Shown: positions 5,835 through 22,800 of the stretch, in pieces
Layout: the number at the start of each line of letters is the position of its first letter
How positions within the stretch are numbered: the stretch's first letter is position 1
Assembly (NCBI GenBank): GCA_021813505.1
Contig: JAKAKI010000029.1
Location: forward strand, 1 to 62,135
Length of the DNA stretch: 62,135 nucleotides
DNA from: a bacterium
GTDB taxonomy: Bacteria > Zixibacteria > MSB-5A5 > WJJR01
Direction of reading: 5' to 3'
The notes under the pieces: model-generated
The model's input: only the letters and a program-made list of their open reading frames with translations
Told to the model about the DNA's origin: nothing
Databases searched by the model: none
Translations under genes and position numbers: made by a program

Positions 5835-7601
5835 ATGAGCGATGAGTCGAAGCCGTTTGATGCCAGGGCACTCCTGGGATTTGCATTACTAATCGGACTG
5901 GTTCTGCTGTTGCCGGTGTACTGGGAATGGATCGGCTTCAAGAAACCTGAGCCCACCGTCCCCGTGGTCACAGACAGTACATTCGCAGTGACACCAGCGG
6001 ACACAGTCCACCGGCCCGCGCCCGGCCCCCAAAAGCTGGCAGCCGCGCCGGCCCCGGTCTCCAGCGACACATCCGGCGGCCCGTTTGTTTGGGATTCAAC
6101 GTGGACCGAGAAATACGTCCACGTCGAAACCGACGTGTACGATGCGCTCTTCTCGACCCGTGGCGCCCGTATCGTACGGCTCGTACTGAAGAATTTCCGT
6201 TACAACGACGAGCCCCGTCACAATCAACCGATTGTCATCTCGGACACGACCGGTGACGCGGGCCTCCGGTTCCATTCGGTACGCGATCTGTTCGACTGGT
6301 CCACCGCACCCTTCACGACCAGTCAGACCGACATGAAGCTGGCGGGAGAGGATTCGACCGTCCTGCGCTTCCAGGCGCGTTCGAGCAAAGGCAATGACAT
6401 CATCATCGCCTATACGATCCACGGCAAGCGCTACGATTTCGACGTGAATGTCTCGGTACCCGAGCCCTGGGCTGACGGCCTCGAGAATGAGTACTACTTC
6501 GGCTGGGATGGCGGCCTCTGGCCGACCGAGCCAGATCCGAGTGAGGATAACAGCTATTTCTCGGCCGACGCGCTGATGGGGAAGGACTTCGAAAAAGTCT
6601 CGAGTTATGACCCCGAGGCACCCCGAAAGAACCTCTCCGGCGTGACCCACTGGGCCGCTGTTCGCACCAAGTACTTCGTCTGCGCGACCGTTCCACGCGG
6701 CCGCGACGCGCAGGGATTTCTGGCCGTCACCGATCAAAGACCGCTGACGTTCAAAGGCAAGACGCTCGAGGTTAAGAAATTCTCGGCGGCGGTGCGCATG
6801 GACCTGCCCGCCGGCACACCGCTCAACGACCGGTTCACCGTCTACATCGGACCGGTGGAATATGGCCTGCTCAAGAGCTACGGCATCGGCCTCGAAGAAA
6901 TGGTGGATCTGGGCTGGCGCTGGCTGATCCGTCCGATCGCCCTCGTCATTCTCTGGCTGTTCACCGCCATGCACGCCGTCATCCCCAACTACGGCGTCTC
7001 GCTCATCATCTTCGCCCTCATCATCAAGGTCCTCTTCCATCCGCTCACGAAGAAGAGCACGATGTCGATGCGGCAGATGCAGGCGCTGCAGCCGCGCATG
7101 GAGAAATTGCGCGAGCGCCACAAGGGCGACGCCCAAAAGCTCAACGTGGAAATGATGAAGCTCTACAAGGAAGCGAAGATCAACCCGCTCTCCGGCTGCC
7201 TGACCCTGCTGCCTCAGATGCCGATCTTCTTTTCCCTGTATCCGGTGTTCCGCTCGACAATTGAACTGCGCGGCGCGCATTTCGTCGGCTGGATCTCCGA
7301 TCTGTCGCAGAAAGATCCCTACTACGTACTGCCGATCATCATGGTCGTCAGCTTCTTCCTGCAGCAAAAGCTATCGACCAAAGATCCCAAGCAGAAGATG
7401 CTCACCTACATCCTGCCTTTGGTATTCGGCTTCTTCTTCAAAGACATGCCGGCAGGACTGACCCTTTACTGGACGGTCTTCAATCTGTTCTCGGTGATCG
7501 AAATGACCTGGCTGATCGGCCATCCGCCGGCTGCCGGCGCCGATGGCGAAGTGGGTTCGGGCGCGATTCTCAAAACAGCCCCGGCCAAGTCGAAGGGGTG
7601 A
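5835..7601 (+). CDS. yidC: membrane protein insertase YidC
   Basis: A 588-residue inner membrane insertase that folds and inserts membrane proteins alone or with SecYEG. It has the Gram-negative layout: an N-terminal transmembrane segment (about residues 12-35), a large periplasmic domain (about 40-365), and a C-terminal catalytic core of five helices beginning HAVIPNYGVSLIIFALIIK. The cytoplasmic hairpin QALQPRMEKLRERHKGD and the LPQMPIFFSLY and PAGLTLYW segments are conserved. It sits between yidD and mnmE in the classical order; its stop overlaps the possible GTG start of mnmE. Confidence 0.97.
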   Translation: MSDESKPFDARALLGFALLIGLVLLLPVYWEWIGFKKPEPTVPVVTDSTFAVTPADTVHRPAPGPQKLAAAPAPVSSDTSGGPFVWDSTWTEKYVHVETDVYDALFSTRGARIVRLVLKNFRYNDEPRHNQPIVISDTTGDAGLRFHSVRDLFDWSTAPFTTSQTDMKLAGEDSTVLRFQARSSKGNDIIIAYTIHGKRYDFDVNVSVPEPWADGLENEYYFGWDGGLWPTEPDPSEDNSYFSADALMGKDFEKVSSYDPEAPRKNLSGVTHWAAVRTKYFVCATVPRGRDAQGFLAVTDQRPLTFKGKTLEVKKFSAAVRMDLPAGTPLNDRFTVYIGPVEYGLLKSYGIGLEEMVDLGWRWLIRPIALVILWLFTAMHAVIPNYGVSLIIFALIIKVLFHPLTKKSTMSMRQMQALQPRMEKLRERHKGDAQKLNVEMMKLYKEAKINPLSGCLTLLPQMPIFFSLYPVFRSTIELRGAHFVGWISDLSQKDPYYVLPIIMVVSFFLQQKLSTKDPKQKMLTYILPLVFGFFFKDMPAGLTLYWTVFNLFSVIEMTWLIGHPPAAGADGEVGSGAILKTAPAKSKG

Positions 7602-9091
7602 AGAATGCAATGTCCCCTTCATCCGCTCACGTTGACCTGACCAAGACCATCTGCGCGATTGCCACTCCGCCGGGACGAGGCGGATTGGGAATCGTGCGTC
7701 TGTCCGGCCCCGATGCAATCGCGATCGCCGACCGGATCTTCCAGGGACACAGCAAGCTCAGTGAGCAAGAGGGGTACACCGTCCATCATGGGTTCGCCGT
7801 CGACTCGCGCACTCATGCCGAGATCGATGAAGTGCTCGCAACGCTCTTCCGCGCCCCGCGATCATACACCGGCGAAGATCTGGTCGAATTCTCAGCGCAT
7901 GGTGGACAGTTGGTGTTGAGCCGGATCGTCGATGCCTGCATCGCCGCGGAGGCGATCCCCGCACAGCCGGGCGAATTCACCCTGCGCGCGTTTCTCAATG
8001 GACGCATCGATCTGACGGAAGCCGAAGCGGTGGCCGATCTGATCGCCGCCAAGACCGATGAATCCTCCGCCGCGGCCCTCGCGCAGTTGAAGGGACAGTT
8101 GCACGAGGAGATTCTCGCCCTGCGTGCCGGGATCATCGCGGCCCTCGCGCGTTTGGAAATCGGTATCGATTTCACCGAAGAAGACATCGCGCCGTCTGAG
8201 ATTGCGGGCGTGAGGGATCGAATACAGGAAGTTCGTGGGCGCGTGCTGCGTTTGCTCCGAAGTTATGATCGCGGCCGCGTGTTGCGCGAGGGATTCACCG
8301 TGGTGCTCGCCGGTCCGCCCAACTCCGGCAAATCGACGCTCTTCAATCGGCTCGCGCAGGATGAGCGCGCGATCGTCACCGACATTCCCGGAACCACGCG
8401 CGACATTCTCCGCGAGTACATCAATCTCAACGGCTGGCCCGTCTGCATTCTCGACACAGCCGGCATGCGCGAATCAGCCGATGTCGTCGAACGAATCGGC
8501 GTCGAGCGCGCCGAACACGCCATCAAGGAAGCTGATGGCGTGATCTGGTTGATCGACAGCACAACCGATGTGACCCCACAACTGCCAGTAATCGACGAGA
8601 AATCGAATCGGACACCTTGGGCAATTTGCTGCAACAAGAGCGATGTTTCATCTGTGTTATCAATTGTGTCACAGCGTCTTACATCGAAGAGCGAAATAGC
8701 ATCTGAACATGGTCAACCGGTGGAACATGATATCGGTGGGCCGGACACTCCTGTCCGGCCTCGCTGCGATGACACGCGAGTACTCGAGATCTCCGCGAAA
8801 ACCGGCGCCGGCATTGATGAATTGCTGAAAACGGTATCCGCGTGGATCGAACCCATCGGCACGGCGAGAAGTGGAGGCACTTTCGCAATCAACGATCGTC
8901 ACCGCCGCGCCCTGCAATCCGCCGATGCCGCATTGGCTTCCGCGCTCGAGTCGCTGGCCCGTGCCGACGGCGTCGAGCTTGCTGCCTTCGACGCCCGCAA
9001 CGCCGCACTTCACTTGGGCGAGATCATCGGCGAAACCACCACCGAGGACGTGCTCACCGAGGTTTTCAAAAACTTCTGCATCGGCAAGTAG
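7598..9091 (+). CDS. mnmE: tRNA modification GTPase MnmE
   Basis: A 497-residue GTPase that works with MnmG to place carboxymethylaminomethyl or related groups on U34 of certain tRNAs. The N-terminal folate-binding domain begins CAIATPPGRGGLGIVRLSG. The G domain shows the P-loop GPPNSGKS (residues 239-246), DTAG, NKSD and SAKTG, and the protein ends in the required CIGK with its active cysteine. Between NKSD and SAKT the G domain is enlarged by about 40 residues, which include an in-frame palindrome at 8735-8762. The GTG at 7598 overlaps the yidC stop; ATG 7610 is an equally good start. Confidence 0.95.
   Translation: MKNAMSPSSAHVDLTKTICAIATPPGRGGLGIVRLSGPDAIAIADRIFQGHSKLSEQEGYTVHHGFAVDSRTHAEIDEVLATLFRAPRSYTGEDLVEFSAHGGQLVLSRIVDACIAAEAIPAQPGEFTLRAFLNGRIDLTEAEAVADLIAAKTDESSAAALAQLKGQLHEEILALRAGIIAALARLEIGIDFTEEDIAPSEIAGVRDRIQEVRGRVLRLLRSYDRGRVLREGFTVVLAGPPNSGKSTLFNRLAQDERAIVTDIPGTTRDILREYINLNGWPVCILDTAGMRESADVVERIGVERAEHAIKEADGVIWLIDSTTDVTPQLPVIDEKSNRTPWAICCNKSDVSSVLSIVSQRLTSKSEIASEHGQPVEHDIGGPDTPVRPRCDDTRVLEISAKTGAGIDELLKTVSAWIEPIGTARSGGTFAINDRHRRALQSADAALASALESLARADGVELAAFDARNAALHLGEIIGETTTEDVLTEVFKNFCIGK
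8735..8762 (+). repeat. 28-bp palindromic element inside mnmE
   Basis: GGCCGGACA and TGTCCGGCC form a perfect 9-bp stem with a 4-base loop (8739-8760). The same 28 bases occur at 38974-39001 after nuoN. Within mnmE it is translated as GGPDTPVRP at about residues 381-389, in the loop between the NKSD and SAKT motifs. Confidence 0.9.
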
Positions 9092-9180: not shown

Positions 9181-11025
9181 ATGACTCGCTCCCCGCGCAT
9201 CATCGTCATCGGCGGCGGCCACGCCGGCATTGAAGCCGCCTGTGCGGCCGCTGGAATGGGTGCGATAGTCGCGATGATCACGCAGGATCCGCAGGCCATC
9301 GGAAGAATGTCCTGCAACCCGGCAATCGGGGGTATCGGCAAAGGCCAGATCGTTCGCGAACTCGACGCCATGGGCGGACGCATGGGACTTCTGACCGACC
9401 GCGCCGGGATCCAGTTCAAAATCCTCAATCGCCGCAAGGGCCCGGCTGTGCAATCATCGCGCGCCCAATGTGATCGGCGGTTATATCAGTCAGCAGCCCA
9501 GGATGAAATCGCCGCGATCGCGAATATCAAAATCGCGACGGATAATGTCCGGTCATTGACCATCGAAAACAATCGTGTGACCGCGGTGATCGGTGACAGC
9601 GGTGAAACATACCCCGCCGACGCTGTGATCCTCGCCGCTGGCACGTTCCTGGAAGCGGTGACTCATGTCGGCGCCGAGCGCAAATCGGAGGGACGGTTCG
9701 GTGAACCACCGTCGCGTGGCTTGTCGGGCCAGTTACGCAGCCTGGGCTTCGAGGTCGGACGATTGAAGACTGGAACTCCGCCCCGCCTCGATGGATCATC
9801 GATCGATTACTCGCTCTGCGAAATCCAGCCCGGCGATCAGCCTCCCCGGGGGTTCTCGCGCCGCCGGCCGATTCCCATCGCCAACCGCGCGAACTGCTGG
9901 CTGACCTACACAACCACCGAGACCCATCAACTGATCACCGATAACATCGGCCGCTCACCGCTTTACAACGGCCAGATCTCCGGCATTGGTCCGCGATATT
10001 GCCCGTCCATCGAAGACAAGGTCATGAAGTTTGCGGAGAAGCCGCGACATCAGCTTTTCCTCGAACCGGAGGGGATGGGGACTGACGAGATCTACATCAA
10101 TGGATTCTCAAGTTCGCTTCCCGCCGAGGTGCAACTCGATGCGCTTCGCACGATTCCTGCTCTCCGTGATGTGAAGATGACCCGTCCCGGCTACGCGGTC
10201 GAATACGATTTCTTCCCACCGACCCAACTGCATCTGACTCTTGATACAAAGCCGATCAACCGACTCTATTTCTGCGGCCAAATTAACGGAACCTCCGGGT
10301 ATGAGGAAGCCGCCGGGCAGGGATTTGTCGCGGGGGTCAATGCCGTGCTCGCGATTCGTGGTGAGGAGCCATTCATCCTCGGTCGCTGTGAATCGTACAT
10401 CGGGGTCATGATCGACGATCTGGTCACACTCGGCGTCGACGAGCCGTATCGTATGTTCACTTCCCGCGCTGAGCACCGTCTCCATCTGCGTGAAGACAAC
10501 ACCGAACGCCGCCTCGCTCAGCATGGGTTCCGGATCGGCCTGGTCCCAGCGAATGAATACGATGCGCTGTGTCGGCGCTGGGAGAATATCGATCGCTGTA
10601 TCGCGGAATTCGAGAAGACCGCGATTCCCGCTGCTTCGATCCCGTTCCCCGGAATAAAACGCCAGGGCGGCGCGACACTTGCCGAACTCCTGCGCATTCC
10701 GGGAGTTTCGTTTGACGATCTCAACGGTTTCGGGGCTCAGATCGCACCGGTCGAGACGCTCGTCTCCGAAGCAGTCGAGATTGCCATCAAGTACGAAGGG
10801 TATATCGAACGTCAGGCGCGCCAGATCGAGCAGTTCAAACGCCTCGAATCGCAACGGATCCCCGCGGACTTGCACTATTTGGGATTGACCGGTCTCCGGC
10901 GTGAAGCGAAAGACAAGTTCACGCGCATCCGTCCCTATACACTGGGCCAGGCGTCTCGAATTCCCGGCATTACTTCGTCCGACATCGCCGTTCTGATGGT
11001 CCACCTGCGCACCAACTCCAATTAG
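9181..11025 (+). CDS. mnmG: tRNA U34 modification FAD enzyme MnmG
   Basis: A 614-residue FAD-dependent partner of MnmE. It starts with the dinucleotide-binding motif IIVIGGGHAGIEAA, followed by MSCNPAIGGIGKGQIVRE. The central region has CGQINGTSGYEEAAGQG and the C-terminal region FTSRAEHRLHLREDN, all hallmarks of MnmG/GidA. ATG 9181 is placed directly before the Rossmann motif; an upstream extension to 9118 is low-complexity and lacks support. The order mnmE-mnmG-rsmG-parA-parB is the classical origin-proximal order. Confidence 0.97.
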   Translation: MTRSPRIIVIGGGHAGIEAACAAAGMGAIVAMITQDPQAIGRMSCNPAIGGIGKGQIVRELDAMGGRMGLLTDRAGIQFKILNRRKGPAVQSSRAQCDRRLYQSAAQDEIAAIANIKIATDNVRSLTIENNRVTAVIGDSGETYPADAVILAAGTFLEAVTHVGAERKSEGRFGEPPSRGLSGQLRSLGFEVGRLKTGTPPRLDGSSIDYSLCEIQPGDQPPRGFSRRRPIPIANRANCWLTYTTTETHQLITDNIGRSPLYNGQISGIGPRYCPSIEDKVMKFAEKPRHQLFLEPEGMGTDEIYINGFSSSLPAEVQLDALRTIPALRDVKMTRPGYAVEYDFFPPTQLHLTLDTKPINRLYFCGQINGTSGYEEAAGQGFVAGVNAVLAIRGEEPFILGRCESYIGVMIDDLVTLGVDEPYRMFTSRAEHRLHLREDNTERRLAQHGFRIGLVPANEYDALCRRWENIDRCIAEFEKTAIPAASIPFPGIKRQGGATLAELLRIPGVSFDDLNGFGAQIAPVETLVSEAVEIAIKYEGYIERQARQIEQFKRLESQRIPADLHYLGLTGLRREAKDKFTRIRPYTLGQASRIPGITSSDIAVLMVHLRTNSN

Positions 11026-11878: not shown

Positions 11879-12658
11879 ATGGATATCAAACTCTTATCGC
11901 GACGCCGGATTATTGCCATTGCCAACCAGAAGGGCGGCGTGGGCAAGACGACGACATCGGTCAACCTGGCGGCCAGCCTTGCCATGGCCAATCGCCGTGT
12001 GCTGTTGATCGATCTCGACCCGCAGGCCAACACGACTTCGTTCCTCGGTATTGAGAAGAGTGCGATCAGCTTGTCGTCTTACGAAGTCATGGTCGATGGC
12101 TGCCCTCTGCTCGATGCGCGCCTCCCGACTTGTGTCGAGTCGCTCGACTTGATCCCATCGGCGATGCGTCTGGTCGGGGCGGAAATTGAAATGGTGACCA
12201 TGGACAATCGCGAGCACCGTCTCAAGGACGCGCTTGACGATCCGCGTCTCGCCTATGATTTCGTGATTGTCGACTGCCCGCCGTCGCTCTCCATTCTCAC
12301 CGTGAATGCCTTGGTCGCTTCGGGGTCGGTGCTGGTTCCGGTGCAGTGTGAGTATTTCGCTCTCGAGGGACTCGGGCTGCTGTTGAACACGATCGAGAAA
12401 GTTCAACAGTCATTGAATCCCGACTTGGCTATCGAAGGAGTGCTGCTCACCATGTTCGACAGCCGACTCAATCTGTCGCGCCAAGTCGAGGCGGAAGCGC
12501 GGCGCGTCTTTAATGGCAAGGTGTATCAAACGATGATACAACGGAATGTGCGGTTGTCGGAAGCGCCCGGATTCGGCAAGCCCATTGTCCTTTATGACCC
12601 AACGTCCGCCGGCGCGGAGAACTATGTCGCATTAGCCAAAGAGGTGATCGCATCATGA
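11879..12658 (+). CDS. parA: chromosome partitioning ATPase ParA (Soj)
   Basis: A 259-residue deviant Walker ATPase that moves the ParB-parS complex. The P-loop KGGVGKTT lies near residue 19, the DLDPQANTTSFL motif near 45 and VIVDCPPSLSILTVNAL near 128. The length is that of small chromosomal ParA without a DNA-binding extension. The stop overlaps the parB start (ATGA). With two parS sites just upstream the segregation system is complete. Confidence 0.96.
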   Translation: MDIKLLSRRRIIAIANQKGGVGKTTTSVNLAASLAMANRRVLLIDLDPQANTTSFLGIEKSAISLSSYEVMVDGCPLLDARLPTCVESLDLIPSAMRLVGAEIEMVTMDNREHRLKDALDDPRLAYDFVIVDCPPSLSILTVNALVASGSVLVPVQCEYFALEGLGLLLNTIEKVQQSLNPDLAIEGVLLTMFDSRLNLSRQVEAEARRVFNGKVYQTMIQRNVRLSEAPGFGKPIVLYDPTSAGAENYVALAKEVIAS

Positions 12659-13509
12659 ACGGAAACCGTCTCGCCTTAGGCCGCGGGCTCGAAGCCCTGA
12701 TCCCCACTCAGTCCGATCAACTGACCTCCAAGGGTAAACAGGTGATCGATCTGCCTCTCGACAAGATTGTCCCCAATCCCAATCAGCCGCGAGTGCAGTT
12801 CGACGGCGCCAAGCTCGAGGCGCTAGTGGCATCGATCCGCGAGAAGGGGGTTATCCAGCCAATCTTAGTGAAGGCGACCGCGACTGGATACCAGGTCATC
12901 GCCGGCGAACGTCGTCTCCGCGCCTCAAAAGCTGCCGGACTGGCCAAGATACCGGCCATTGTGGCAGAAATTACGACTCAAGCTGACGAACTTGAATGGG
13001 CGTTGATTGAGAATCTTCAGCGTGAGGACCTCAATCCCATGGAGGAAGCGGTTGCATACCAGCGACTTGGCGAGACTTTTGGATACACGCATGAGGATAT
13101 TGCCAAGCATGTTGGGAAGGACCGTTCGACGATCTCGAACGCGCTTCGCCTTTTGAATTTGCCGGATGAGGTGCAGGCCCAAGTTGCCGATGGGGCCATT
13201 TCGGCGGGGCATGCGCGGGCGCTGCTGGCGCTGATACTCGATGAGGAGCGGATCAGTTTTGCCAAGCGGATCATTGCGGAGGAGCTGTCGGTACGGCGTA
13301 CGGAGGAGTTGATCAATGAAAAGCCTCGGCGCCAGTTTTCGCGTGCCAAGCGCCGTTCCGCGGACCTGGAGGCGGTTGAGCAGAAGCTGCGGATGAAATT
13401 CGGCGCGACAGTCCACATCCGCGAGACCCGCAAACGCGGCCGTATTATCTTTGATTACTATGGGCATGCGGATCTGAACCGGCTGCTGGAGGTGATGGGC
13501 GTGGTTTAG
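12655..13509 (+). CDS. parB: chromosome partitioning protein ParB (Spo0J)
   Basis: A 284-residue CTP-dependent DNA clamp that loads at parS. It starts NRLALGRGLEALIP, then has the nuclease-like box I VPNPNQPRVQF, the CTP-binding motif GERRLRASKAAGL and the helix-turn-helix region KHVGKDRSTISNALRLLNLP. A C-terminal dimerisation part ends in a basic segment. It is translationally coupled to parA and is the last gene of the origin operon before the putative defence genes. Confidence 0.96.
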   Translation: MNGNRLALGRGLEALIPTQSDQLTSKGKQVIDLPLDKIVPNPNQPRVQFDGAKLEALVASIREKGVIQPILVKATATGYQVIAGERRLRASKAAGLAKIPAIVAEITTQADELEWALIENLQREDLNPMEEAVAYQRLGETFGYTHEDIAKHVGKDRSTISNALRLLNLPDEVQAQVADGAISAGHARALLALILDEERISFAKRIIAEELSVRRTEELINEKPRRQFSRAKRRSADLEAVEQKLRMKFGATVHIRETRKRGRIIFDYYGHADLNRLLEVMGVV

Positions 13510-13706
13510 CCCAGTACACCGAACAGATCATGAATAGGCAATCCTGAAATCGTTTGACATCAAGCCGACGCGTCGTCTACTTGCATCTGGGTCTTGAAGC
13601 TCTTGCGGAGGTGGAACTGACAACGACCGCGCCGCGATTGCAGACAGTTCGGACACTCAGACTGCAGGGGTTCCGCATTCGATCGACGGTGGTCGAGTAA
13701 CAGACC

Positions 13707-15437
13707 ATGCTGATAACAAGCATTTACATCAAGAACTTCAGGTCCATCAAGGACTCCGGCCCCATTAGGGACATTACGAAGATTTTTGCACTCATTGGTC
13801 GCAATAACACCGGGAAGTCCTCCTTCCTAAAGGCAATTCAAATTGCTTTTGACAAGCGCTCCGTAGACGCTAACGACTTCCACAAAGATACCGCCGAAGA
13901 CTTGGAAATCACCTGCGTAATCGAAAAGAACTCTGGAGAGACGAGAGAGTCAAAAGAGCTGAAAGTCGTATGCGCCAGAGACGAATTGAAGGTGAGCTAC
14001 TACATCAACGGGGAGAAGCTGAAGAACAAAAAAGACTACACTGCCGCCCTCCCGACACTGCTGAGTATTAGCGACATCCGAAACCCCAAAGACTCGATGA
14101 CGTCAGATGGGAACAGGACCACGCTGCTCAAGCAAATCATGAAACTCCGCGAAACCAGCGACGGGGACTTTGGAGAACGATTATCTGCTCTTTCTCAACA
14201 GATGACCCAACTGAAGACACAAGAGACGGCGGCACTTTCAGAGAAGATTACCGAGAAGTTTCGAGACGTCGTTGGTGAACAGAGTTTCTCTGTGGCCATC
14301 ACTCCTGACATAGATCTCGAGAAAGGCATCGCCTACAGGACCGGCATTACCGACCATGACATTCCTGACGCAACAACAGTAGATATCCTGAACTCCGGCA
14401 CAGGTCTGCAGAGTATGTACCTGCTTTCTTTGCTTGAGGTGTTCGCGGAACTGTCCGTGAAGGACAGCGACGCGATTCTGATAATTGAGGAACCGGAGGT
14501 CTATCTACACCCGGAATATCAGAGACGGATGTTTGCGGCACTAAGGCGCATCGCGGATCAGAATCAAGTCATTTTCACCACGCACTCGCCCATCATGATT
14601 GCTGACATTTGGCTCACTGAGAGTGTGAGACAAATCCGATTGAACAATGGAGAAACGCAGGTAGAAAGCGTAAAGATCGAAGATGTTATAGACGAACTCG
14701 GGATACGCTACGAGGATGTTCTGAATCCGAGGCTCGTGGTGTTTGTTGAGGGCAAGGACGATATTGCGTTCTACGAGAAGCTTGGCATCAAAGACCCAAA
14801 GCTTCGAATTATCTGGACTGACAGTTTCCGCGCGATCCACTATTACGCATTCATCAAGATCATCTCCAGCGAGCACGTGAAGAATTCGTTCGTTCTTATT
14901 GCCGACAGCGACGGCGAAGGCCCGGAGAAGAGAAAGGAGAAACTGAAGGAGGAAGTGCGCCGTCAGTTCAAGAATCCGCCCCCGGATCTAGACGCTAGGG
15001 TGAAGGAAAAGATCTTCATTCTTGACAAGTATGCGATAGAGTCCTACCTCTTGAACGAAACCACGCTCACTGCCGCCTTCCCTGAAATCGCCGCGGACAA
15101 GATTCGGACTTTCCTCGCGGAATATGAGGCGAAATACAGTCAGATGGCAGAGGAAGTGCGAAGCGGGCGTTTAACAATTGGAAAGTTCCAGCAGTATTTG
15201 AAACCAAGTTTGATTTTTGAGGCACCACGGAATCAGATACATGAGGAAGCATATCGGAGCTTTTGGGCAGGTTCAGAGACTTTTCTTGGTGTAAAGGGAC
15301 TCATCGCTCAACGCTGTCACGACATAGCTCGCGAACGTGGCGCCCCATTCGCGCATGTGCTCAGCCATGCGAACCTTGAGGAGTTTCCGGAGTTGATAGC
15401 GCTAAAGAAAGCAATACTTGACCTCCTCAAGGGGTAA
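13707..15437 (+). CDS. OLD-family ATP-dependent nuclease (ABC-type ATPase plus TOPRIM)
   Basis: A 576-residue protein with an N-terminal SMC/ABC-like ATPase: start ITSIYIKNFRSIKDSG, Walker A GRNNTGKSS (31-39), and the Walker B region LIIEEPEVYLHPEYQRRM followed by FTTHSPIM. The C-terminal TOPRIM domain has FVEGKDD (Glu348) and IADSDGEG (Asp400, Asp402), the metal-binding residues of OLD nucleases. Such nucleases serve in phage defence. Gabija pairs an OLD protein with a UvrD-like helicase, which is absent here. It opens a four-gene operon that looks richer in A/T than its neighbours, which suggests transfer. The ribosome binding site is weak. Confidence 0.85.
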   Translation: MLITSIYIKNFRSIKDSGPIRDITKIFALIGRNNTGKSSFLKAIQIAFDKRSVDANDFHKDTAEDLEITCVIEKNSGETRESKELKVVCARDELKVSYYINGEKLKNKKDYTAALPTLLSISDIRNPKDSMTSDGNRTTLLKQIMKLRETSDGDFGERLSALSQQMTQLKTQETAALSEKITEKFRDVVGEQSFSVAITPDIDLEKGIAYRTGITDHDIPDATTVDILNSGTGLQSMYLLSLLEVFAELSVKDSDAILIIEEPEVYLHPEYQRRMFAALRRIADQNQVIFTTHSPIMIADIWLTESVRQIRLNNGETQVESVKIEDVIDELGIRYEDVLNPRLVVFVEGKDDIAFYEKLGIKDPKLRIIWTDSFRAIHYYAFIKIISSEHVKNSFVLIADSDGEGPEKRKEKLKEEVRRQFKNPPPDLDARVKEKIFILDKYAIESYLLNETTLTAAFPEIAADKIRTFLAEYEAKYSQMAEEVRSGRLTIGKFQQYLKPSLIFEAPRNQIHEEAYRSFWAGSETFLGVKGLIAQRCHDIARERGAPFAHVLSHANLEEFPELIALKKAILDLLKG

Positions 15438-15494
15438 TGGAGCCCGGTGCCCGCAGCGCTCAGAGTAGGCGGTGCGGGCGAGGGTCTGCCACGG

Positions 15495-16283
15495 ATGGAT
15501 CCGAAAGCAACTAACATTGTCTCGGCCGAGTGCCTGCACTTTCTAAGGATGGCGTACAGGTTTATTTCTGAGGAGTGGAGCCACGCGGTTCGTGAACCAA
15601 TTCCGGATCGCGGTTTTGAAGAAGCGTTTCGCACAATGTGCGTGACGAAACTCCAAAGCTGGAGGATATCACAGATTCGTGAAATGAACCTTGGCCAGAA
15701 CTTGGAGAGCGCCTCTGGAATCTTGCACGAGATTGATCTCGTAGGAATACACGAAAGTGTGTCGGTTGCTGCAGAACTAAAGAACTGGACCGGGACACTT
15801 CCCGGCAAGAATGAGGTAGTCGTTTTCTTTGCAAAACTATTCGACTATTTCGCTGCTAACCCTTCACTCATGCTCCACGATTTCTGCCCATTGTTCTTGT
15901 CAGCTATGGGCTTTGACGAGAGTGGCCTTGCGGCATGTGTGGGTCTTGGGATTCACCCTATGGCCCCTGGATTGAGGCCGCTCCCGATAGTGGTTGACTC
16001 GGCCCAACGGATGGACGCGGAGATTCGACGCGGACTGAATGTAGGCGTGGAGTTAAGCGAGCGCCTGGCAGACTTGTGGGGCGTAACTGAGCAACTCTGT
16101 AGACAGGTAGATGTAACATGGCTGAGCAGCCGGTGCGGCTACCTTTCAGAGACTAGCATAGCGGTGAAGGCTATCCTCTGTCCCGACGCGATTGGTCTGG
16201 CTAGAACCCTGCGGGAGGTGAACGGACTTTGCGACCAACTGCTGGGCGAGTTTAGGATACAGATGAGACTGGCGAAAGCATGA
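15495..16283 (+). CDS. putative PD-(D/E)xK nuclease of the defence operon
   Basis: A protein of about 262 residues that I cannot assign to a named family. The segment HEIDLVGIHESVSVAAELKNW gives Glu79, Asp81, Glu94 and Lys96, the D-x(12)-ExK spacing of PD-(D/E)xK nucleases, followed by a helix and FFAKLFDYF. Cleavage of DNA, or transcript-targeted nuclease activity, is inferred only from this motif. The start is uncertain: GTG 15447 would add 16 residues. It follows the OLD gene by a short gap and its stop overlaps the start of the next gene (ATGA), so the two are probably co-translated. Confidence 0.6.
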   Translation: MDPKATNIVSAECLHFLRMAYRFISEEWSHAVREPIPDRGFEEAFRTMCVTKLQSWRISQIREMNLGQNLESASGILHEIDLVGIHESVSVAAELKNWTGTLPGKNEVVVFFAKLFDYFAANPSLMLHDFCPLFLSAMGFDESGLAACVGLGIHPMAPGLRPLPIVVDSAQRMDAEIRRGLNVGVELSERLADLWGVTEQLCRQVDVTWLSSRCGYLSETSIAVKAILCPDAIGLARTLREVNGLCDQLLGEFRIQMRLAKA

Positions 16284-17371
16284 ACATTTCAAGCTACAAT
16301 GTGACCGATGTCGGCTACCATTATATCGGCTTGCGTGTGCTTGCAAACTTAGGTAGTAAGAGGCCACGCGAAGCACAATTCAGCGCTGTTTCCGCAAACG
16401 TCCTGAAATACGCGAATGACAAATCCCTTCGATTGATGCTTCCAGCTCCGAGAGGCGACTTCCAAACCGTCGGCGAGAAGGTTTGCCAAGAACTCGTGCA
16501 CCTTGGGTTGGCTGAAGCACCCTATGGTAGCGGCTACGGGCTAACACCGCTCGGCAGGGAATCTCTTGAACTCTTGAATCAAAAGCATCACGCGGAACTC
16601 AGACGCAGAATGATAGAACGGCATCTGAAGACATATGACAACCTCCGGGAAGTGCTCACCAAACAGCTGGATGAGTACGCGATCTGGAGTCCGGTTGTGG
16701 ACGCTAAGCGCTTTTCCCATGTTGAGTACATCGCGCAACTGCTGAAGCCAACGTATGGATCGGATGCTCTCGAGGCAGCAGACAACATCCGACTCTCCGG
16801 ACTGACTGAGTCAGCGAAGAAAACAGAGGATGTCGTTCGGCAAGCAATATTGGACCGTGTGTACGCACCTGATGGTATTCGGCTTCCACTTTTTCGATCA
16901 ATGTGCGACAGACTTGCGAGTTTGCGCCTCGTAAACATCATGCGCGCGACTGTAGACGATTGCGAGTTTGCAAAATATTACTCGCCCTGCTCTTCCGGGA
17001 AATCGCTCATGACATGGCATGTTGGTCTTTCAGTAACTTTGAATGGCGACAATCAGTTTCAATTCTTTGTATCTGAACCAGACATGAAAGATGAGGTGAT
17101 TTGTGATTTCCTTCTAGCGGAGCTTCTCGATGCACTCCAAGGCCTACGATCCCAAGCGGGTTACTATGACTTGCCACAGGTGCGCGACACGGTGTGCGAG
17201 CGGATGTGGATTCCAGAGGCGGCTTTTGATGAGGGTGTCAACGAGCTGTTGGATAGGCAGCCGTCGCCGGTAACAGTGGGCCTGACATATGAGGGGATTT
17301 CGGGTCGGCGGAAACCTCTTGTCAGGAGCCGAGAGTCAATTCAGATTTTCAATCTTCTTAGGAGGGCATAA
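16280..17371 (+). CDS. unrecognised protein of the defence operon, possible winged helix at N-terminus
   Basis: A 363-residue protein without a family I recognise. Residues about 20-100 (FQTVGEKVCQELVHLGLAEA, then GYGLTPLGRESLELL) read like a winged-helix domain with its typical wing and following helix. The remainder is soluble, with several helices and no clear catalytic motif. It is locked between the nuclease (4-bp ATGA overlap) and the ATPase (1-bp TAATG overlap). The tight coupling suggests the three products form a complex in fixed ratio, with this protein as a possible DNA-recognition or adaptor subunit. Confidence 0.6.
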   Translation: MNISSYNVTDVGYHYIGLRVLANLGSKRPREAQFSAVSANVLKYANDKSLRLMLPAPRGDFQTVGEKVCQELVHLGLAEAPYGSGYGLTPLGRESLELLNQKHHAELRRRMIERHLKTYDNLREVLTKQLDEYAIWSPVVDAKRFSHVEYIAQLLKPTYGSDALEAADNIRLSGLTESAKKTEDVVRQAILDRVYAPDGIRLPLFRSMCDRLASLRLVNIMRATVDDCEFAKYYSPCSSGKSLMTWHVGLSVTLNGDNQFQFFVSEPDMKDEVICDFLLAELLDALQGLRSQAGYYDLPQVRDTVCERMWIPEAAFDEGVNELLDRQPSPVTVGLTYEGISGRRKPLVRSRESIQIFNLLRRA

Positions 17372-18735
17372 TGACACTTCCAATCCCACGACGGACTGGA
17401 CCTGCGGGACCTTCCAGGTACGAGTCTTTAGGTCTTAGAGATCTCCCTTTTCCGACGGAACCCGTGATTGATCCGTACAATGGAGATCCGCGAAGGAATG
17501 GGAGCATTTATGCGGAGTCTGCAGCGCGCGACGCCATAGAGAAGTTTGAGCGACTTCTCATTTGCCCTGGAGACTTTCGTAATCGCCATCGACTGGCATA
17601 CTTGTGGGCAAAAGGTGACCGTGAGACAGGACGAGGTGTCGGAAAGAGTGCGCTCCTCCGATATTTCATGCAGCGTATCAATCGCAATTGGGGCGAAAGT
17701 GAGTTCGCTGGACAATTTTCAGCCTGTGTGATTTATGTATCGTTCCCCTCTCAAGTAGACCGCCGTTACATGGAGCAACTGGCCCTGTCGGCGCTTAGAG
17801 ACACTCTAAAGTCCGGAGTATTGGAGTCCTCACGAGCCGCGCTTCGACTCGAGAATCTTACTCCCGACCAGTCCAAGGCCGTTCTGGAACATGGAGGAGG
17901 GGCTTATGAACCGGGTAACCTGCTGGATGACTCCATCCTTGAAATGGAAGGACTCGACGTTGAGCAACTGGACGAATCGATAGCAGATAAACTGATAACA
18001 GCAGGCGTGGAACGTAGAAGTGCTTATCCCCTCGCGAAGGGCGAGTTTGGAGAGTTCCTGCGAGACTTTCGCAAAGACCGTTCATTGGAACCACTGTACG
18101 TGCCTAGAGACACGAAGATTCTAGACTACTCGCGAACGCTGCTCTTCGACGACCTGGTGAACTATCTGCGAGCGGCAGGATTCGAAGGTGGGTACCTGTT
18201 CATTGATGACATTGAGAATCTTGTAGATCAAATGGGCCGGCGGGACCGGATAGAATTCGCCAAGGAGTTCGCCTTGTGTACTGTGCGGCCTGGATATGCG
18301 AACACAGCGTACAGCTTCTTCTCTTGCGTGCTGACGACGCACCAACAAGCATCGGTTGGACTCGCCCAAGCGTGGGCCGATGCTGGGTTATCCGGAATTG
18401 CACGGCTGGACCCTGGGGCGCCCAACTCTATGGAGTTGGCGTTTCCAACCAAAGATCAGGCGAGGGAGATTATTATTGCTCACATGGATTGGTACCGGAT
18501 CGACCAGAAGGACCAAGGTACGATAAGTCCGTTTACAGAGGACGGGTTGAATGCGTTGCTTGAGGACCGTGAGACAGTTCACCCGAGAATGTTATTGTCA
18601 CGTGCCGCAAAGGTAATTCTACATGCTGTTCACGAGAAGACGGCCACGATTGACGCGAAGTGTGTGGCAGATGCGGCTGCGGCGAGTTCTGTAGCTCCGC
18701 CGGATGTGACAGAGGGGATTGATGGGGCACTTTGA
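17371..18735 (+). CDS. P-loop ATPase of the defence operon
   Basis: A 454-residue NTPase. The P-loop is TGRGVGKSAL (Lys92, Ser93) and the Walker B is YLFIDDIENL (Asp279, Asp280); SCVLTTHQQ could be the sensor strand. The C-terminal part (from about residue 390) is helical, with HPRMLLSRAAKVI, like the lid or winged region of AAA/ORC-type or BREX BrxD-like ATPases. I could not place it in a named system. It starts one base into the stop codon of the preceding gene and ends the operon; dispersed repeats follow directly. It probably supplies the energy or switching step of the system. Confidence 0.7.
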   Translation: MTLPIPRRTGPAGPSRYESLGLRDLPFPTEPVIDPYNGDPRRNGSIYAESAARDAIEKFERLLICPGDFRNRHRLAYLWAKGDRETGRGVGKSALLRYFMQRINRNWGESEFAGQFSACVIYVSFPSQVDRRYMEQLALSALRDTLKSGVLESSRAALRLENLTPDQSKAVLEHGGGAYEPGNLLDDSILEMEGLDVEQLDESIADKLITAGVERRSAYPLAKGEFGEFLRDFRKDRSLEPLYVPRDTKILDYSRTLLFDDLVNYLRAAGFEGGYLFIDDIENLVDQMGRRDRIEFAKEFALCTVRPGYANTAYSFFSCVLTTHQQASVGLAQAWADAGLSGIARLDPGAPNSMELAFPTKDQAREIIIAHMDWYRIDQKDQGTISPFTEDGLNALLEDRETVHPRMLLSRAAKVILHAVHEKTATIDAKCVADAAAASSVAPPDVTEGIDGAL

Positions 18736-18770
18736 GACCAACACCAAGGCTGGAAGTGGAAGGTGGCTTG

Positions 18771-20510
18771 GTGCCCCGCAGCTCTGCTGCGGGATGACGG
18801 AACGGGGAATCTGGATTCCCAAGCAGTGGATGATGGTAGAGGTGTAGACATTGAGTGACGTGGTCGTGAAAAAGTGACATCCCGCAGCAGAGGGGCGTGT
18901 TGAAGAAGCCCTCCGAAAGGTGGCGACAGTTGCGTAAGGGGGAGATTGCTTCGGCGCAAAGAGCCGCGCCTCGCAACGACAGCAGAAGGGGCCAGGCGGT
19001 TGCGCTAGGGCGAGATTGCTTCGTCCGCCGCGGCGGACTCGCAACGACAGCAGCAGGGGCCAGGCGAGAAGAGGGGCCCCTGCCACTGACTGCGTGATGT
19101 TGCCGTCTCGTATACGTGGAACGGGTTGGCCGTATTCCCCCGGGCCGTTCGTTGAGGGTATCGCATAATCGTGGCGGCTGCGCTAGGGGGAGATTGCTTC
19201 GGCGCAAAGAGCCGCGCCTCGCAACGACAGCAGCAGGTGCCAGGCGTTTGCGCAAGGGCGAGATTGCTTCGTCCGCCGCGGCGGACTCGCAACGACAGCA
19301 CACTGGTCGTTGGCAATGGAAAGGCACAGTTGTCGTTGCGAGGAGCGTCTCCGCCGAAGGCGGAGGGAGCGACGAAGCAACCTCCCCCTTACACAACTGC
19401 CGCGATCTCGAGGACAAGTTTTTCAACAGGCCCCAGAGCTGCGGGGCACCCTCTCCTCGTGACATTGCCGCTGTCGCTGGATTAAAGCACCATGACGAAC
19501 TCGGGACGGCGCGGATCGTGGCATGCAGTTGTCACTACCGCCTCCCGCGTTTGAATCGTCGTGCTGAGCGACCGACTGGAGCGAAGCATCTGCTGTCGGA
19601 TCGCTGGTATGCTGAATGCCGGGTGCCCGGAATCAGGACGGCACAGTTGCGTCGTGGGCGCGATCTCGCAGGCGGGTTGAAAAGCTGGGCAGACAAGAGT
19701 GTCTGCCCCACCCTTGATCACCGAAGTTCCTGTCTCTCAGTGGCCCGGCTACTCCTGTCTGCGTTCTCATCCGCAGATGCTGGGGGCCTTCAACAGGCTC
19801 TTGAGTGGGAAGCCATTACAGCACACGTACGGACAGCAGACCCTTCACTCGCTTCGCTCGTTCAGGGTGACAGCGGGGACGGCTCGACTGAATAGCACTT
19901 CTTGCGTAGAGGTCGGAGGAGTCACGCCTGTCGCGCTGTCGGAGGGGCCACGCCTGTCGTGCTGAGCGACCGAAGGGAGCGAAGCATCTGCTGTTGGACG
20001 GCCGGAGCGTGAATACATCTTCCAGGGAGGAAGGCGTTGCCGCCGCACACGACGGACTGCAGACCCTTCACTCGCTCCGCTCGTTCAGGGTGACAGTGGG
20101 GACGTGGTACGAAGAGCACGACACTGATGGAACTCGGACCCTTGGATTGTCCCCCTTGACTCCCGGTGGCGCCGTGTATTTGGTTTGCGTCACCCTCTCC
20201 CGTCTGGAGTTGTGCCGCCCTCGGGTGAGCACGTGCGCTCCAGCGCAAGGTGCACCGTCATGGGCCGCGGGAGAGGTTTTTGTTTTGCGGACCTGTCGGC
20301 CTGTTGAAGGATCGTTGTTGATCAAACCGAAAGCATGATTATTCGGTGCCACAGACAAGGAAGGGCGAGATTGCTTCGTCGCTTCCACCGCCTTCGGCGG
20401 AGACACTCCTCGCAATGCAGACTGTGGCTTTGCATTGCCAACGTCGTGTGAGCTGTCGTTGCGAGGCGCGGCTCTTTGCGCCGAAGCAATCTCGCCCATA
20501 CGCAAGTGCA
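18771..20510. repeat. cluster of dispersed palindromic repeats, no intact gene
   Basis: About 1.7 kb built from several repeat families in both orientations. Family A has GCGAGATTGCTTCG, a variable hairpin, and CTCGCAACGACAGCAG, at about 18941, 19009, 19190 and 19258, inverted at 19330 and 20455, and a variant at 20366. Family B has GAGCGAAGCATCTGCTG or its partner GCAGACCCTTCACTCGC ending TTCAGGGTGACAG, at 19561, 19838, 19958 and 20059. Family C has GGTGCCCCGCAGCTCTG, at 18771, 19436 (inverted) and 20871. Open frames across this region are by-products of the repeats. Families A and B recur at 23.5, 33.7 and 35.8 kb. Confidence 0.85.
19095..19185 (-). pseudogene. relic of the 5' end of a GIY-YIG gene
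   Basis: The sequence CCCCGGGCCGTTCGTTGAGG with the adjoining TCGTGGCGGCTGCGC stretch is shared between 19136-19186 and 20811-20857, the upstream flank of the intact GIY-YIG gene. On the minus strand the following codons read NPFHVYETATS, echoing NQFYVYNMTN at the start of the intact gene. The rest is replaced by family A repeats. This looks like a second, truncated copy. Confidence 0.5.
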
Positions 20511-20515
20511 TCGCC

Positions 20516-20803
20516 TCAGAGCTGATCGTACAGATCCCGCCACCGCGGGTTCATCTTATCGATCAGGTCGACCTTCTTCTGGCGTGACCCTGCCTTGATC
20601 TGCTTTTCGCGCCGGATCGCGTTCCACGCGTCGGCGAAGACCTCGAAGTAGACCAGCTTCACGGTTTTGTACTTCGTCGCAAACTGGCTGCCAAAGAGGT
20701 TGCGATGCTCGAACGCTCGTTTCCTCAGGTCGTTGGTCATGCCCGTGTACAGCGTGGTGTTGTTCCGGTTGGTCATATTGTACACGTAGAACTGATTGGT
20801 CAT
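20516..20803 (-). CDS. small GIY-YIG domain endonuclease
   Basis: A 95-residue single-domain protein of the YhbQ/UPF0213-like GIY-YIG group. It shows FYVYNMTN then LYTGMTNDLRKRAFEHR, the two strands and arginine region of the fold, and a catalytic glutamate in AIRREKQIK. Members may be stand-alone repair-type or selfish nucleases; no partner domain is present. ATG 20803 was chosen over the upstream frame because the family begins here. It lies inside a repeat cluster, its upstream flank is duplicated at 19.1 kb, and its stop is followed by a family A repeat, all consistent with mobility or gene conversion. Confidence 0.85.
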   Translation of the reverse strand: MTNQFYVYNMTNRNNTTLYTGMTNDLRKRAFEHRNLFGSQFATKYKTVKLVYFEVFADAWNAIRREKQIKAGSRQKKVDLIDKMNPRWRDLYDQL

Positions 20804-20970
20804 GGCTTCCCCGGGCCGTTCGTTGAGGTTATCGCACAATCGTGGCGGCTGCGCAGGGGCGAGATTGCCTGGTGCCCCGCAGCTCTGGGGCGTGTTGAAT
20901 AACGCCGGTCTATTAAGTCGAAAGCCTGATTATCCTTGTCCGTGACTTTCTTCGGATTGCGTGGAAAAGA

Positions 20971-22176: not shown

Positions 22177-22800
22177 AGCCTCGAACCCTCCATCACTCTC
22201 GGGGTCGGATTGAGATTGGCCAAATGGCTTTTGCGGCCAGCCAGGATCCAGACAGCATGATTACTACAATTCAAAGGACGTTCTATTCCAGCCGGGTGTC
22301 CCGAAACGATACACCATAGTTCGCCCTTTCAGGGCTTGGTTCAGGAGTCGGACCGGAGTCCCAGCGCTTCGCGCTGGGCTGAGATAGGGTGCCCTTTCAG
22401 GGCTTTATCTGCAACGCCCCCGTTCGCGGAAAGGACGTCGGTGGCCATTTAGCGTTGAATTTCTCGGCTTTCCACGTTGTATTTCTCAGCAAACGCAATC
22501 GCCTGCCGTTGAGGGCTTTGCTGCCCTACGCGAATATTGGCGTATAAATTCTCAACGATCAGGGTTTCTACGGGTTGGGAGCTGCGTTGGGCCGCTGCAG
22601 AATAGGACTTATAAGACATTATAGGACCTATTGATACGCAGCCTTGTCGGTTGTGACATGGGTGTTGCTGTTTTCGGCACGCAGGTCGCTCATGTGAAAT
22701 GTGGAACTAGCTCCCCGCGATCCGACCAGCGTGGTGGGTTGGGACCAAATCGAGATGAGAAGATGAGAAACAGTGGACAAAGAAAAGAGGGAGGTTCGTC
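22177..22800. repeat. intergenic region with short palindromes, no gene seen
   Basis: The region has CCCAGCGC-TTC-GCGCTGGG (22360-22378) flanked by two copies of CGCCCTTTCAGGGCTT (22322 and about 22389), a layout seen as a dispersed repeat in many environmental genomes. A CATTATAGGACCTATTGA element near 22615-22632 resembles the one at 3600. No open frame has support. A promoter for the redox operon should lie at the right end but no clear boxes stand out; GGGAGG before the ATG at 22801 is a good ribosome binding site. Confidence 0.6.

Follow-up and report, generated by a model that had tools for sequence, protein, structure and literature searches.

Operons that encode an Orc/Cdc6 AAA+ ATPase, a REase-ASCH protein and a DndG-like triple-wHTH protein, as well as HerA/FtsK capture systems, have been described as mobile and defence-associated (PMC10853773), and BREX-related capture systems with similar parts are also known (PMC12839542). 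In BREX and its relatives, which contain BrxC/BrxD, an Orc/Cdc6-like AAA+ protein with wHTH units is combined with an effector nuclease (PMC12839542). The phosphorothioate-linked restriction systems DndFGH and SspBCDE share the logic of an ATPase, a multi-wHTH reader and a nuclease, with SspC being an Orc/Cdc6-clade ATPase paired with the triple-wHTH protein SspB. In Tn7, TnsA and TnsC join a PD-(D/E)xK nuclease to an AAA+ partner.

The same kinds of parts, namely a PD-(D/E)xK-type nuclease (B), a winged-helix-rich, putatively multi-wHTH protein (C) and an AAA+ ATPase (D), are encoded by a three-gene unit of about 3.2 kb in the contig JAKAKI010000029.1 of a bacterium of the Zixibacteria, which was analysed over 62,135 nucleotides (the window, Table 1). 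The first-pass annotation had described four genes on one strand with overlaps among the last three, and indeed all four open reading frames were located on the plus strand, with B and C overlapping by 4 bases and C and D by 1 base. The longer open reading frame of gene B (15447-16283) would begin with GTG 15447. This start was ruled out: all relatives align from about ATG 15495, and the preceding stretch is intergenic DNA common to a genome of the same genus, so that B most likely starts at the ATG. The A/T-richness ascribed to the region was borne out by a GC content of 49.4% for the OLD gene and 52.5% for B-C-D versus 59.2% in the rest of the window, and among its 5-kb stretches the one with the highest A/T content was 13501-18500. 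Scans for sigma-70 and terminator signals revealed nothing exceeding chance.

Table 1. Features of the window around the B-C-D unit
Feature	Position	Strand	Description
parAB	11879-13509		Pfam assignment
OLD gene	13707..15437	+	OLD-family ATPase-TOPRIM nuclease, class 1 like (no UvrD partner); PADLOC Old 9e-40, Pfam AAA_15 2e-31
52-bp single-copy element	15441..15492	.	Between OLD and B; intergenic; boundary of two cargo modules
Gene B	15495..16283	+	262 aa from the ATG; PD-(D/E)xK-type nuclease by residues and profile match
Gene C	16280..17371	+	363 aa; winged-helix-rich putative DNA reader
Gene D	17371..18735	+	454 aa; AAA+ ATPase by Walker A/B, HPR near C end
Repeat cluster	18765-20900		Dispersed direct and inverted repeats, families of 35-122 bp
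GIY-YIG-like ORF	~20516-20839	-	In the repeat cluster; read by eye
Acido-Lenti-1 small RNA	22360-22404	+	Rfam RF01687, 47.1 bits, E 2.6e-8

The unit differs from each of the described systems. None of 10 B proteins gave an ASCH match at E<=10, and HerA/FtsK genes were not recognised by eye in the listed neighbourhoods, which sets the unit apart from the operons described in PMC10853773. None of the three proteins matched the DndG, SspB or DUF4007 models, PADLOC and NCBIfam returned no DndF/G/H or SspB/C match, and no phosphorothioation genes were recognised nearby. BrxC/PglY, PglX, PglZ and BrxX of BREX are absent from the unit, and D was unmatched by the BrxC_BrxD model. Of the MADS genes mad1-mad8, only mad8 gave a match, to D at E 0.0053 in one of ten members, while B and C had no PADLOC match. 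In comparison with Tn7 there is neither the transposase TnsB nor a sequence match. The statement that no named system has this gene set thus held in HMM searches of each gene, B-C-D being unmatched in PADLOC, Pfam and NCBIfam, and no paper naming the trio was found in the literature searched, the coverage of which lies outside bioRxiv and most subscription journals. In its broad make-up B-C-D resembles the systems combining Orc/Cdc6, a nuclease and a multi-wHTH protein, and there is a fair chance that it deserves a name of its own.

Among 84,980 species genomes scanned, nine loci (L004-L012) were found, distributed over six phyla: Acidobacteriota, Tectimicrobiota, Verrucomicrobiota, Pseudomonadota, Chloroflexota and Planctomycetota. 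Their D proteins were about 58-65% identical to that of the window, and across seven phyla, the window's included, D is 58-64% identical. In all six fully covered loci (L005-L010) B, C and D kept their order on one strand, and most of them abutted or had overlaps of a few bases. L011 was arranged likewise, its contig ending within B, and L012 contained a partial D only, where its contig begins. In L004 D is intact, C truncated and B missing, which could be a state of decay or could indicate that D has uses without B. No further gene was common among the loci, save for a 31% similarity of two type IIG enzymes.

Profiles recovered more remote trios in a virus-like IMG/VR contig (L013, order C-D-B, flanked by capsid and tail-type genes), in two Chloroflexota genomes (L026, B-C-D, and L027, C-D-B, the latter with a fourth gene with a weak HARE-HTH match) and on a plasmid of Azospirillum brasilense (L043, D-C-B). 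The first-pass annotation had made its proposal depend on whether the last three genes occur together elsewhere; they do so in other close and remote loci. Since the same three partners are kept across three gene orders, a working relation of B, C and D is the simplest account. Their pairwise distances co-vary, with Mantel permutation counts of 28/5040 for B-C, 118/5040 for B-D and 7/5040 for C-D, and B and C evolve faster than D. Searched with the window's own D, plasmids, phages and viral contigs gave no relative; the remote Azospirillum copy was the sole relative in the plasmid and phage collections, and L013 the only one in viral contigs.

Some of the remote loci merit separate mention. 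A UvrD-like helicase gene follows directly after the D-C-B genes of L043 (9228-12005) and is a possible optional fourth part. The trio of L013 (6808-9967) lies inside a capsid-tail gene block, an arrangement suggesting that a phage uses it against competitors. In a further Chloroflexota genome (G246, L046), a 404-aa protein (6927-8141) matched the C profile with its C-terminal part (E 5e-4). This locus was rejected as a member of the trio, as no B-like nuclease motif was found; neighbouring genes encode long wHTH-like proteins and a P-loop ATPase of 1391 aa, and the locus may represent another winged-helix/ATPase conflict system.

The residues D81-E94-x-K96 reported for the nuclease gene are present in B as H78-E-x-D81 ... 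E94-x-K96, numbered from ATG 15495. D81, E94 and K96 were invariant in 11 of 11 B proteins found, at identities as low as 17%. The catalytic D and E-x-K, their spacing and their conservation assign B at sequence level to the PD-(D/E)xK superfamily. No Pfam, NCBIfam or PADLOC family was above cut-off, and the only matches were weak and concordant ones to UPF0102 (0.023) and NERD (0.049). The remote B set matched the close B family by profile over the nuclease core (hhalign 98.1%, E 1e-13).

C was 43-53% identical across eight other loci and is likewise without a Pfam, NCBIfam or PADLOC family above cut-off. Its AlphaFold model (pLDDT 85, good confidence) contains three helix-strand units that look like wHTH domains and are read as such here. 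Structural searches gave partial, weak matches, with wHTH regulators among unrelated proteins, and a full-length match was not found in the PDB or the viral library. Between the remote and the close C proteins the profile match was weak, collinear and confined to the C-terminal winged-helix region (hhalign 5.8%, E 0.0065). A match of C to the PhiKZ capsid (E 0.018, one member) was judged to be due to chance.

The P-loop and Walker B motif noticed in the fourth gene correspond to GRGVGKS at position 87 and LFIDDIE at 276 of D. Both are invariant across the family, and a conserved, sensor-2-like HPR lies close to the C end. The match to AAA_16 (6e-5) stayed under the Pfam cut-off, ORC-CDC6-like matches were also below cut-off, and no Pfam, NCBIfam or PADLOC family reached it. 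The model of D (pLDDT 68, moderate confidence) shows a helical insertion between Walker A and Walker B and found its best PDB matches in RuvBL, Lon and proteasomal AAA+ proteins, with probabilities up to 0.99 and E values of about 0.02-0.1, none <0.001. Together, Walker A, Walker B and the modelled AAA+ core fold indicate that D is an AAA+ ATPase. The remote D set matched the close family over the full length (hhalign 99.9%, E 6e-33). Matches of D to MADS8 and to PDC-M72B, each seen in a single member with E about 0.005-0.009, were put down to chance, and PDB sequence searches with B, C and D, as single sequences and as profiles, gave nothing credible.

The gene preceding the unit carries the ATPase and TOPRIM residues that had been attributed to an OLD nuclease: a Walker A motif GRNNTGKS (G31-S38), a Walker B motif ILIIEEPE from position 257, TTHSP at 291, and the TOPRIM motifs FVEGKDD at 346 (VEGKDD from 347) and LIADSD at 397 (DSD from 400). 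With the Walker A and B motifs of an ABC-type ATPase and the C-terminal TOPRIM E and DxD, its sequence is that of a class 1 OLD protein. The partner helicase is missing as stated, the genes after OLD being B, C and D, none with a helicase match. The absence of GajB, a UvrD/PcrA-like helicase, beside OLD distinguishes the locus from Gabija; the OLD gene encodes a normal OLD-family protein outside B-C-D.

The first-pass annotation had taken OLD and B-C-D as one undescribed four-gene defence operon. An undescribed operon of these gene types was supported, but the membership of OLD in it was not. Both share the strand and a low GC content and only 57 bases lie between OLD and ATG 15495, yet OLD is missing from all other B-C-D loci, and a single-copy 52-bp element, ancestral to the site, separates OLD from B. 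OLD relatives were found neither in L004-L012 nor in 57 related genomes at E<=1e-20. In a genome of the same genus (G001, locus L040), both flanks align collinearly with those of the window at about 90% identity, and the interval from parB to the repeat cluster holds a 241-aa protein of no known family and a GmrSD restriction gene (Pfam GmrSD_N 4e-37) where the window has OLD and B-C-D. The 52-bp element is 86.5% identical to positions 11288-11339 of L040, where it stands directly before the GmrSD gene. Hence its parB side is occupied by either OLD or the 241-aa gene and its other side by either B-C-D or GmrSD, and these different cargo pairs around the element in the two genomes indicate that OLD and B-C-D are separate modules. 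The four-gene reading is thereby largely refuted as a general rule and is extremely improbable; OLD makes up a one-gene cargo of its own in the same hotspot. Judged from the two genomes compared, the swap of cargo around the element also marks the slot as a probable hotspot of defence genes in the genus. No such cargo was present behind parB in G005 and G003, which represent two other genera of the family. The element has a strong potential to form a hairpin (z -2.8 in the window, -2.3 in L040), and its interpretation as a dispersed repeat was ruled out by its single copy in each of the two genomes.

The region lies between the parAB operon and the repeat cluster, as had been described. The parAB genes follow mnmE/mnmG/rsmG-type genes, which were recognised by eye in L040, and the sign of the GC skew changes near 11000, as it does near a replication origin. 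The repeats are conserved in the genome of the same genus. The Acido-Lenti-1 small RNA sits just ahead of the genes that follow the repeat cluster.

Within the window's phylum, D was confidently present in one of 132 genomes and absent from the 131 others; two further matches in the phylum (E about 0.007-0.010) were fragments. Prevalence in sampled genomes was similarly low in Chloroflexota (3/400), Planctomycetota (1/246) and Verrucomicrobiota (1/241), with the seed genome included in each count. Supported clades of the D tree unite different phyla (L005 with L010), and D is 83% identical between L006 (Verrucomicrobiota) and L007 (Pseudomonadota). Binning errors in MAGs could explain single cases but hardly all of them. 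The sequence comparisons show a rare, mobile B-C-D unit that moves as a whole between distant bacterial phyla. An AAA+ protein with a nuclease and a DNA-binding partner would also fit the layout of a housekeeping or repair complex for DNA end processing or replication restart, and some copies do sit among ordinary genes. The extreme rarity and scattered distribution, the copy within a virus-like structural gene cluster and the defence-island neighbours of other copies make such a role improbable.

These neighbours include a BrxC_BrxD-family (BrxD-like) ATPase and a SNF2 helicase like ZorD/DpdE upstream of the unit in L005. In L006 a serine recombinase and ParB-like genes precede the unit, which is followed by AbiEii and by a type IIG enzyme carrying an AbiEi-like part. 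Downstream of the unit in L008 there are RecQ, a TOTE primase-helicase and another type IIG enzyme, and L004 has a phage-type integrase and a resolvase-like gene. The neighbours in L007, L009, L010 and L011 appeared ordinary by eye, which was counted against a defence function. The type IIG restriction enzyme of L006 (11148-15404) is fused to a C-terminal DUF6577/AbiEi-like part, which resembles an AbiE antitoxin, and adjoins the AbiEii gene.

A nuclease of the PD-(D/E)xK type, an AAA+ protein and a DNA-binding protein correspond to the Tn7 set minus the transposase. In a mobile-element module of this kind, B could cut ends as TnsA does, D could be the AAA+ regulator in the manner of TnsC and C a target selector, and integrases or transposase remnants do occur near two loci (L004, L005). 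This reading is already disfavoured and very improbable, as the loci share no DDE transposase and no fourth gene, several copies have ordinary neighbours and no mobile-element genes around them, and transposon families were unmatched in Pfam.

With a probability of roughly 0.6, we consider B-C-D to be a self-contained, horizontally transferred system against invaders such as phages and plasmids, which would act as an ATP-dependent multi-subunit restriction machine. The comparisons document the three-gene unit, its conservation and catalytic residues, its mobility and its defence-rich settings; we infer the defence role from context and every functional step, including the DNA recognised, from the classes of the proteins. 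D would form a ring or oligomer on DNA, and C, with its several winged-helix units, would provide DNA contact and target recognition. The D-C assembly may then recruit or license the nuclease B, which would cut the invader DNA or, once unleashed, that of the whole cell. Since B-C-D contains no methylase, self and non-self would have to be told apart otherwise, for instance by phage DNA modification, replication structures or a phage protein. Neither a methylase nor another self-mark is part of the unit in any locus, which would suit the main rival, abortive cleavage of host DNA: the complex would sense a phage protein or DNA end, D would switch B to indiscriminate cleavage, and the cell would die before phage release. 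Abortive systems commonly place a stand-alone nuclease beside an ATPase sensor, and C and D are the parts that could sense. The model of C resembles a DNA reader more than a ligand sensor, and we regard abortive infection as unlikely, though it is the alternative to be taken most seriously. Returning to restriction of the invader itself, we tentatively propose, at somewhat less than even odds, that B-C-D represents the first known case of an ancient defence system, as yet without a name, in which an AAA+ ring and a multi-winged-helix reader load a stand-alone PD-(D/E)xK nuclease on invader DNA without a self-marking methylase, carried by a phage-like element and by bacteria of many phyla, with proteins so divergent that no searched library models any of the three.

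As none of the three proteins reaches a family cut-off, defence finders and annotation based on Pfam, NCBIfam and PADLOC would miss the unit; the present alignments are sufficient to build models that find further members. How an AAA+/winged-helix/nuclease complex discriminates between invader and self is a question that has been asked of the larger Dnd-, Ssp- and BREX-type machines without being settled. Being small, free of a methylase and widely spread over phyla, B-C-D would offer a tractable test of it.
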